A DNA stretch of 35,594 bases. Source: a virus. The notes beneath the pieces are model-generated. The model was not told the DNA's origin. It saw nothing but the letters and a program-made list of their open reading frames with translations, and did no database searches. The first letter of the stretch is position 1. Every line of letters begins with the position of its first letter. The stretch covers positions 1 through 35,594 of the IMG/VR virus record IMGVR_UViG_3300044705_000199; one strand, 5' to 3'. The position numbers were made by a program, and so were the translations under genes. Shown here one piece after another: positions 29,687 through 33,251 of this stretch.

Positions 29687-30286
29687 ATGCCGACCTCGGC
29701 CAAGGCCGACCGCTTGGAGGCCACGCGAAAGCGACTGATCGCCGTCACCCACCCGACCCGGGAGGCCATCATGCGCGTCATGGTCGACGGCGGAGAGATG
29801 AGCCCTTCTCAGGTCGGACCGTTGATTGGGGAAACGGTCCCCAATACCTCACACCACATGAAAATGCTGCTGAAAGCGGACTGCATCGAACACACGCGGG
29901 AGGGCAGGGTCCGCGGGGCGGTTCAGCACTTTTACCGAGCCATAGATCGACCATTGGTTGAGACTGAGGACTGGGAACTCTTTCGAGAAGAGAACCCGGT
30001 CTGGGCCGAGCACCTCGTCGCCCAGGGTTTGCAGGTCGTCCTAGACGATGCGGCGGCCTCGGCACGGGCTGGCCTTCTAGGCGCAGACAAAAACACGCAC
30101 ATTTCACGGACCAGGCTGGTCCTCGATAGCCAGGGGTTGCAGGAAGGAATGGAAGCCCAGGAACGCTGCAGGGAAGAGATGCTGGAGATCGCCCGACGAA
30201 GCGCCGAGCGTCTGAATCGCGAGGGAGACAATGCGATTCACGTCACGTCGGGGCAGCTTCTCTTCGAGGTTCCCACGAGCGTTTGA
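29687..30286 (+). CDS. ArsR-like winged-helix regulator
   Basis: 199 aa; ATG after GAAGGGAG. The winged helix is clear in residues 10-85: VTHPTREAIMRVMVDGGEMSPSQVGPLIGETVPNTSHHMKMLLKADCIEHTREGRVRGAVQHFYRA, with the RGAVxHFYRA wing ending that is common in actinobacterial regulators of this group. The rest is a helical effector-like domain of unknown ligand (about 100-199). Its GC content looks lower than that of the virion genes, consistent with an accessory gene acquired separately. A promoter is likely upstream, but not resolved. Confidence 0.8.
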   Translation: MPTSAKADRLEATRKRLIAVTHPTREAIMRVMVDGGEMSPSQVGPLIGETVPNTSHHMKMLLKADCIEHTREGRVRGAVQHFYRAIDRPLVETEDWELFREENPVWAEHLVAQGLQVVLDDAAASARAGLLGADKNTHISRTRLVLDSQGLQEGMEAQERCREEMLEIARRSAERLNREGDNAIHVTSGQLLFEVPTSV

Positions 30287-30625: not shown

Positions 30626-31071
30626 CCGCCAGCCGCTAGCGCCTGGGCTTTCGCCCGAGCGAACTCGTCGTCGGTAAGAACCCCGTCCTTGTGCAGCTGG
30701 ACCAGGCGCTGGAGCTCGCCGCTGATGCCGCCTGTCGCCACCGCGGGCGCCTGGGCCGCGCCCGCTGCCGCGATCCGGTTTTTCAAATTGCCGACCTGCC
30801 CGCGCAGATGCCCTGACTGCACGGGGCCGGCACCGACGATTGAGCCCCGCAAAGCCACCTCGGTAAAACCATCCTCTTCCTCTGAGATAACAACCTCGAT
30901 CTTCGCGGCCCAGGTGAAGCTGATGCTGTTTGGCGTCACCTCTTTGACCACCAGACGGCGGCCGTCGTCCTCCAGGACCCGCCACCCTAGATCGGCGATG
31001 GCCTGCCGGACGATCTGCTCGCCCTGCTCGGGTGGGACATCCACAAAGACAAGATCCCTATGCTTACTCAC
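30622..31071 (-). CDS. SHOCT-domain protein
   Basis: 149 aa. The N-terminal 95 residues form an alpha/beta domain (LVFVDVPPEQGEQIVRQAIADLGWRVLEDDGRRLVVKE, KIEVVISEEEDGFTEVALRGSIVG) like lipid- or surface-binding small domains. A hydrophobic Ala-rich linker leads to a C-terminal SHOCT motif: ELQRLVQLHKDGVLTDDEFARAKAQAL. It lies just downstream of, and overlaps by four bases, the repressor-candidate gene on the same strand, so both may be expressed in the lysogenic state. Function unknown; superinfection exclusion is one possibility. Confidence 0.75.
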   Translation of the reverse strand: MSKHRDLVFVDVPPEQGEQIVRQAIADLGWRVLEDDGRRLVVKEVTPNSISFTWAAKIEVVISEEEDGFTEVALRGSIVGAGPVQSGHLRGQVGNLKNRIAAAGAAQAPAVATGGISGELQRLVQLHKDGVLTDDEFARAKAQALAAGG

Positions 31072-31364
31072 CTTTCGCCTGCCCTCCGCTTCACAGTTTT
31101 CCCCGCGGGGCCGACGTCTTCAAGAGCCCGCCGGGCCATCTCGTCTACGTCTCCGCGCCAGCCATCCCAGCCGCCCTCGAGGAACCACATCGGAACGTCG
31201 GACACGTCCGCAATCGCCAACAACTCCCGTCGCGGCGGCCGCCGTTCACCCAGCTCCGTGCGCTTGTAGGTCGCCTCGCCCAGCTCCAACCGCTTGGCCA
31301 TCTCTGGCTGCGTGAGTTCGGCAAAGGTCCGGGCGGTCCTGATGCGGCGCGCTAGGTCGTCCAT
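31068..31364 (-). CDS. XRE-type repressor candidate
   Basis: 98 aa from the ATG at 31364; the frame stays open upstream but that part overlaps the operator region, so I prefer this start. HTH: RRIRTARTFAELTQPEMAKRLELGEATYKRTELGERRPPRRELLAIADVSDVPMWFLEGG, a Cro/C1-type layout ending in the VPMWFLEGG segment common to phage-type XRE proteins. Leftward, opposite to the two HTH genes at 31447 and 31725; the arrangement is that of a lysis-lysogeny switch. It lacks a LexA-like peptidase domain, so induction would not be by RecA-driven self-cleavage. The ribosome site is weak. Confidence 0.78.
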   Translation of the reverse strand: MDDLARRIRTARTFAELTQPEMAKRLELGEATYKRTELGERRPPRRELLAIADVSDVPMWFLEGGWDGWRGDVDEMARRALEDVGPAGKTVKRRAGER

Positions 31365-31394
31365 CCGGGCCTGACCGTAGCTATCCGAAGGGAG

Positions 31395-31430
31395 AGGAAA
31401 CGGATAGTTGCGGTAGGAAAGGGATAGTTG
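31395..31430. promoter_or_regulatory. Tandem operator-like repeats of the divergent switch
   Basis: AGGAAACGGATAGTTG (31395-31410) and AGGAAAGGGATAGTTG (31415-31430) differ at one base and start exactly 20 bases apart, about two turns of the helix. An inverted core, CTATCCGAA, lies at 31381-31389, and a further TTTCGGAT occurs at 31438-31445. They lie between the divergent repressor candidate and the Cro-like gene, and are likely operators. Confidence 0.7.
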
Positions 31431-31439
31431 TGATACGTT
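31431..31439 (+). promoter_or_regulatory. Extended -10 promoter of a likely leaderless gene
   Basis: TGATACGTT fits the extended -10 pattern TGnTAnnnT. It ends seven bases before the GTG at 31447, so transcription would start at or next to the start codon. No clear -35 is seen at the right spacing. No Shine-Dalgarno is present, which agrees with a leaderless mRNA. Confidence 0.55.
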
Positions 31440-31446
31440 TCGGATC

Positions 31447-31725
31447 GTGACGAGATCAAACGTCTCACCTCCGATCCGACGTGTGGCCCTCCGCGGCCCC
31501 CGCACCCCCAACCACCACCTCCGACGTCTCCGCCGCAACCGCGGCTGGTCCTACGCCACGCTTGGCTACAAGGCCGGCGGCATCACTGCGAAAACGATCC
31601 GCGACATCGAGGAAGGATTCACCCGCAACCCTCACGTCAGCACGATGCACGCGCTGGCCGGCGCCTTGGGGGTCCAGGTCACCGACCTCGACGTCGACGG
31701 CGCACCGATCGAGGACCGAGCCTGA
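31447..31725 (+). CDS. XRE/Cro-like helix-turn-helix protein
   Basis: 92 aa from a GTG with no ribosome site. The HTH covers about residues 25-80: LRRLRRNRGWSYATLGYKAGGITAKTIRDIEEGFTRNPHVSTMHALAGALGVQVTDLD, where AKTIRDIE is the recognition helix. The first gene of the rightward early operon, next to tandem operator-like repeats and facing the repressor candidate. It could be the Cro-type antirepressor of the switch. The stop overlaps the ATG of a second HTH gene (TGATG). Confidence 0.82.
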   Translation: MTRSNVSPPIRRVALRGPRTPNHHLRRLRRNRGWSYATLGYKAGGITAKTIRDIEEGFTRNPHVSTMHALAGALGVQVTDLDVDGAPIEDRA

Positions 31726-32522: not shown

Positions 32523-33251
32523 GTGTCCGCTGGCGGGCTCCCGGACGTCTTCTGGTTGGTCCGCCGCCGCGGCGCGGACGAGCTCGAGGACTGGATCCCG
32601 GTCACCGACGCCGCCGCGATCGCGGCCTACCGCCAGAGCTCTCACTTCGAGATCACCGAGTGTCGCCAGCCCCACGCTCACTCCGTGCAGCGCGACGTCG
32701 CCGACTTCCACGAGGCCTTCAACCTCGGCGCCGGCGACTACCCGGCGATCCGCAAGGCCGGACTCCGCGCCAGCCTGATCGCCGAGGAGGCGCGGGAGAC
32801 GGTCGAAGCGATCACCGGCCGGAAGGTCACGATCGAGATCGACCCCGACGAGGACGCAGAGCAGTCGCTGGTGAAGTCGATCGACGGGCTCTGCGACCTG
32901 CTGGCCGTCGTCTACGGCACCGCCGTCCAGTTCGGCGTCAACCTCGCCCCGTTCTGGGACGAGGTCCACCGGACCAACATGGCGAAGGCCGGCGGGCCCA
33001 AGCGCGCCGACGGCAAACAGCTGAAGCCGGAGGGCTGGCAGCCGCCCGACATCGGCGGGCTGCTCACGGCGCTGTACCCCGGGGTCTGCCGCGGCTGCGG
33101 CTGTACGGAGACGATGCCGTGCTCTCACATGGACTTCGGCTCCTGCGGCTGGGCTGAGCCTGGCCTTTGCACCGCCTGCCACCCCGACGCCGGGCCGGGC
33201 TGGGAACACCCCGACCACGACCTGCTGAGCGAGGTCGAGGATCTTGGTTGA
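32523..33251 (+). CDS. MazG-like pyrophosphohydrolase fused to a Cys-rich C-terminus
   Basis: 242 aa from a GTG. The central region (about 55-155) is all-alpha NTP pyrophosphohydrolase-like: QRDVADFHEAFNLG, then IAEEARETVEAI with an EExxE metal motif (Glu88, Glu89, Glu92), and LVKSIDGLCDLLAVVYG with a DxxxD pair (121 and 125), ending HRTNMAKAGGPKRADGKQLKPEGW. Such phage enzymes remove or recycle nucleotides. The C-terminal 60 residues have several Cys and His (CRGCGCTETMPCSHMDFGSCGW, CTACHP), probably a zinc site. An N-terminal 45-residue segment is unassigned. Confidence 0.85.
   Translation: MSAGGLPDVFWLVRRRGADELEDWIPVTDAAAIAAYRQSSHFEITECRQPHAHSVQRDVADFHEAFNLGAGDYPAIRKAGLRASLIAEEARETVEAITGRKVTIEIDPDEDAEQSLVKSIDGLCDLLAVVYGTAVQFGVNLAPFWDEVHRTNMAKAGGPKRADGKQLKPEGWQPPDIGGLLTALYPGVCRGCGCTETMPCSHMDFGSCGWAEPGLCTACHPDAGPGWEHPDHDLLSEVEDLG

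Follow-up and report, generated by a model that had tools for sequence, protein, structure and literature searches.

Organization of the divergent intergenic region

Virus record IMGVR_UViG_3300044705_000199 (35,594 bases, GC 68%), analysed over its whole length and hereafter called the window, contains an 82-bp divergent intergenic region (31365-31446) between a leftward gene for an XRE protein and a rightward operon encoding two HTH proteins. The initial sequence-only reading had placed these three genes around the region, and all of them are present (Table 1). The intergenic DNA has a GC content of 54%, compared with 68% for the window.

Table 1. Features of the divergent region and its flanking genes
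Feature	Position	Strand	Remarks
SHOCT-domain protein, 149 aa	30622..31071	-	Pfam SHOCT 4.1e-6, 26.8 bits, just under the 27-bit cut-off; start overlaps repressor stop (GTGA)
XRE (HTH_31) repressor candidate, 98 aa, without peptidase domain	31068..31364	-	Pfam HTH_31 6.7e-10; PHROG 2328 'transcriptional repressor' 1.3e-11
Leftward -10 hexamer TACGGT	31374..31379	-	Predicted; 9 nt before ATG 31364
Half-site S1, TTCGGATAGCTACGGT (inverted)	31374..31389	-	Includes leftward -10 TACGGT
Half-site S2, AACGGATAGTTGCGGT	31399..31414	+	Covers -35 zones of both promoters
Half-site S3, AAGGGATAGTTGTGAT	31419..31434	+	20 bp from S2; abuts rightward -10
Rightward extended -10, (TGA)TACGTT	31434..31439 (TGA from 31431)	+	Predicted; 7 nt before GTG 31447
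Weak half-site S4, TTCGGATCGTGACGAG	31439..31454	+	20 bp from S3; over start codon GTG 31447
Cro-like XRE protein, 92 aa, first gene of rightward operon, likely leaderless	31447..31725	+	HTH_3 2.1e-8; HTH_31 6.6e-9; PHROG 5823 1.1e-10
Second small HTH protein, 69 aa	31725..31934	+	HTH_31 3.8e-5, below Pfam cut-off; start overlaps preceding stop (TGATG)

An AGGAAA(C/G)-type repeat had been reported to occur twice at an exact 20-bp spacing. It is found as AGGAAACGGATAGTTG (31395-31410) and AGGAAAGGGATAGTTG (31415-31430), and the direct repeat extends to 20 nt, with 17 of 20 positions identical. The inverted CTATCCG noticed nearby (31381-31387) is part of a longer, 14-nt arm, ACCGTAGCTATCCG (31374-31387), which pairs at 12 of 14 positions with CGGATAGTTGCGGT (31401-31414). 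In all, there are four half-sites with a consensus of about CGGATMGTTRCGGT: one inverted, two strong direct and one weak direct. When the window is scored with a matrix derived solely from S1-S3, the weak half-site S4 ranks 7 of 71,158 positions; a site of this rank is unlikely to fall in the 20-bp register by accident (for any one specified position, about 1 in 10,000). A distinct inverted repeat, GTGATACGTTT / AAACGTCTCAC (10/11), spans 31430-31468 with its centre at the GTG start codon and is perhaps a Cro operator.

We assessed the repeats against several random models. Dinucleotide shuffling of the window never yielded two matches at ≤3 mismatches, and no Markov-shuffled window had a 20-nt repeat of such quality at a 20-nt spacing. 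In trials with random 82-bp sequences of matching composition, a comparable repeat arose in 0.015% and at least three GGATAG/CTATCC words in 0.005%; the entire window has five such words, three of them within the intergenic region. The repeats and their register are thus far above chance expectation and confined to the intergenic region.

No homologue of the operator sequence was detected in IMG/VR or in phage and plasmid records. A search of IMG/VR for the phased GGATAGTT pair returned 21 contigs, which by a rough estimate is near chance expectation. Because of this number, because most of the matches are simple 10-bp tandem repeats or lie in coding sequence, and because no divergent XRE pair is present in the 11 of the 21 contigs whose flanking ORFs were listed, we rejected these contigs as carriers of homologous operators.

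Genomic context

The record encodes a terminase, portal, head protease, major head protein, tail sheath, tape measure, baseplate wedge and endolysin. This gene set identifies the phage as contractile-tailed. The phage is uncultivated and probably infects a high-GC bacterium; its portal is similar to actinobacteriophage portals. The record begins with an ATG, finishes with a stop codon and has no end repeats over its 35,594 bases, which suggests an excised or trimmed piece. Neither a serine nor a tyrosine integrase (PF00239, PF00589) was matched anywhere in the record, which may be cut. It does carry a ParB-like gene, and two related contigs encode integrases: G001 (IMGVR_UViG_3300005841_000941; 78% portal identity to the record) a serine integrase, and the more distant G006 (IMGVR_UViG_3300036851_000739; 42% terminase identity) tyrosine integrases. 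We regard the phage as probably temperate.

Several other genes deserve mention. The ParB-like protein (1-2013, 670 aa) combines an N-terminal ParB domain with a C-terminal winged helix and is encoded upstream of the terminase. Between the endolysin and the switch lies a winged-helix regulator gene (29687-30286), ArsR/MarR-looking by eye, with its own separate upstream region; at the corresponding place, G001 has a short helix-turn-helix gene of similar look. The early operon includes a MazG/PRA-PH-like nucleotide pyrophosphohydrolase (32523-33251) with relatives in 17 IMG/VR contigs, and no half-site cluster was found in the relatives sharing this gene.

Predicted promoters and translation starts

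The extended -10 that had been placed seven bases before GTG 31447 is there, and a -10 hexamer can likewise be predicted just upstream of the leftward start (Table 1). A TANNNT element at a gap of 6-9 nt precedes only 3 of the 1,464 RTG codons in the window, and two of these three are the divergent starts themselves. At the other gene starts checked, TANNNT was never found within 30 nt. Anti-Shine-Dalgarno pairing is weak at both divergent starts (-3.8 and -2.1 kcal/mol), compared with about -5 to -15 kcal/mol at most other gene starts checked. No clear -35 was found for either divergent promoter. In Mycobacterium tuberculosis, TANNNT is the standard -10 and goes with no conserved -35; of the genes whose start has been mapped, about one in four is leaderless (PMC3898074). 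An analogy with M. tuberculosis, based on the high GC of the phage and on a portal resembling those of actinobacteriophages, is consistent with such an arrangement here.

Given the TANNNT elements 7 and 9 nt upstream, their rarity (3/1,464) and the lack of a good Shine-Dalgarno sequence, both divergent mRNAs probably have no leader or almost none. The original proposal that the rightward transcript has no 5' leader is thus retained in a softer form: promoter-to-start geometry, the missing Shine-Dalgarno sequence and the rarity of the arrangement in the window all speak for it, at the strength of 'leaderless or nearly'. GTG 31483 could be an alternative Cro start codon. On the other side, no in-frame alternative start exists upstream of ATG 31364 near the HTH domain.

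The repressor candidate and the coupled SHOCT gene

The leftward XRE protein consists of an HTH domain only. As had been proposed, it has no peptidase domain, such as the C-terminal S24 domain of LexA/CI-type SOS-cleavable repressors, and RecA-style self-cleavage is therefore unlikely. Nor does the record contain a PF06114 match that would indicate an M78 metallopeptidase partner of the ImmR/ImmA or DdrO/IrrE type. A host protease might conceivably act on the repressor. No repressor homologue was found in IMG/VR or in phage and plasmid records, and peptide-pattern scans revealed no true relatives of the repressor, the Cro-like, the second HTH or the SHOCT protein; two viral hits and a Ruminococcus hit from these scans were dismissed as distant or chance matches. 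The structure model of the repressor was too poor for use (mean pLDDT 55.6).

The coupling of the repressor gene to a SHOCT gene was also borne out. Since the SHOCT start lies within the repressor stop and is preceded by a good Shine-Dalgarno sequence (-10.0 kcal/mol), the two genes are probably co-transcribed, and the SHOCT protein would be expected in lysogens. Its structure model has a beta-alpha-beta4-alpha domain followed by two SHOCT helices. Fold matches to Bet v1/START (helix-grip), BamC and KA1 are weak (TM about 0.3-0.5 by query length), too low to name a function. The protein might serve lysogenic conversion or might act together with the repressor; any role in switch control is speculation.

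Model of the switch

Two divergent HTH regulators flank a short intergenic region, and the repeated sites overlap both predicted -10s. The DNA itself shows the sites and their register, the geometry of the predicted promoters and the order of the genes; from these we infer which protein binds which site, as well as cooperativity, autoregulation, leaderless starts and lysogeny. We consider it likely that the region controls immunity in a probably temperate, contractile-tailed phage, with the 98-aa XRE protein repressing the rightward operon and the Cro-like protein competing with it. A divergent lysogeny switch with operators, as the sequence-only reading had proposed, appears well supported by the anatomy, the statistics and the two related viral records.

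According to this model, the 98-aa XRE protein would bind the 14-16-bp half-sites, cooperatively at S2-S3 (and weakly at S4), 20 bp apart on one face of the DNA and around the rightward -10. Occupancy of S2-S3 would shut the early operon and hold lysogeny, and binding to the inverted S1, which contains the repressor's own -10, would provide autoregulation. The 92-aa Cro-like protein would compete for the same sites and so switch the repressor off. Both mRNAs would start at or a few nucleotides from their start codons, so that operator, promoter and translation start would be superposed. Because the repressor has no peptidase domain, its release would be expected through an antirepressor, dilution or another protein, not through RecA-driven self-cleavage.

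The assignment of sites to proteins might be different. Modelled on switches whose two regulators use different operators, an arrangement can be envisaged in which the direct repeats are occupied mainly by the Cro-like or the second HTH protein, and the S1/S2 inverted pair is all that the leftward XRE protein binds. All three proteins have HTH folds, and S1/S2 form a long inverted pair (12/14), whereas S2, S3 and S4 are direct. However, one consensus is common to the four half-sites, which is simplest if a single specificity reads them all, and we view a division of the sites between two binders as possible, though rather unlikely. We consider it improbable that, instead of serving as repressor operators, the repeats bind an activator or act as iteron-like sites for replication or partition. 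Promoters lacking a good -35 would be expected under activation, and the ParB-like gene at the left end of the record could hint at partition, but that gene lies next to the terminase region, at a distance of 29 kb, and no replication initiator was found adjacent. Moreover, just three direct copies, overlapping both -10s and the start codon, fit repression. Slightly less probable still is a host-type or toxin-antitoxin XRE module in place of a lysogeny switch: there are weak sub-threshold matches to HipB/Y4mF antitoxin models, yet no toxin partner is present among the adjacent genes tested, and the module sits within a phage genome downstream of the endolysin, in a position corresponding to that of the G001 XRE switch.

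An extension of the repressor-operator model would have the S2-S4 array block both RNA polymerase and the leaderless ribosome start, with the co-translated SHOCT protein acting as an induction sensor that frees the repressor. We regard this extension as a long shot; if true, an array over the Cro start combined with a SHOCT sensor would make a non-SOS switch of an undescribed kind.

Comparison with known switches

The divergent XRE design recurs in the two related contigs. Both have divergent XRE genes with repeats between them and, 6-7 nt upstream of the leftward repressor start, a TANNNT element: TAGGCT at 6 nt from the repressor ATG in G001 and TACGGT at 7 nt from the leftward ATG in G006. 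In contrast, their operators are unrelated to those described here: G001 has TTCAGCC-type repeats spaced 23 and 42 bp, and G006 has 9-bp tandem GTGCACGGC repeats. The G001 repressor is longer (175 aa), and the rightward gene of that contig has a Shine-Dalgarno leader. In G006 (L044:3660-3720), about five GTGCACGGC-type repeats continue up to the Cro-like start codon, at a 9-bp and not a 20-bp spacing. Judging from these sequences, the design is kept and the operator sequence replaced, which is common in phage immunity regions.

Among characterized systems, BPs, an actinobacteriophage (Mycobacteriophage), has divergent promoters and paired half-sites in one intergenic region (PMC4557955). Its gp33/gp34 switch resembles the present one in the small repressor, the divergent Prep/PR and the paired half-sites overlapping promoter elements, but BPs immunity is integration-dependent and its operators are built on 12-bp palindromic half-sites. 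In PY54 the divergent cI and cro mRNAs are both leaderless by RACE, and the lambda cI mRNA is leaderless as well (PMC4488713). The predicted leaderless starts liken our region to that of PY54, which differs in being a telomere phage with a linear plasmid prophage and lambda-like CI and Cro, its Cro binding a single operator.

A functional parallel is phage P2. Its C repressor lacks a peptidase domain and is not known to be SOS-inducible. P2 C (99 aa) recognizes a pair of direct repeats, 22 bp apart, on either side of the Pe -10 (PMC4752584). Likewise, the present phage is contractile-tailed, its candidate repressor is a peptidase-free HTH protein of 98 aa, and direct repeats about two helical turns apart (S3 and weak S4) flank the early -10 at 31434-31439. 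The differences are the 20-bp spacing, the extra inverted site and the Cro-like XRE protein in place of Cox. The search of solved structures detected no sequence similarity to P2 C: no P2 C chain was among the PDB sequence matches to E 10. By analogy, then, the switch may work like P2 C/Pe, and we claim no membership in the P2 C family. Of the earlier suggestion that the control logic differs from lambda, the absence of a peptidase domain holds, but the logic would be the familiar P2 C type (PMC4752584) and not a new one.

Overall, this phage switch is well formed but of an ordinary type. Direct repeats, peptidase-free repressors and leaderless starts are known from P2, PY54 and lambda; the coupling of the repressor to a SHOCT protein is its sole unusual element. 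The region provides a compact immunity region for the little-studied contractile-tailed phages of high-GC bacteria and one more likely case of a P2-like direct-repeat operator combined with leaderless early genes.
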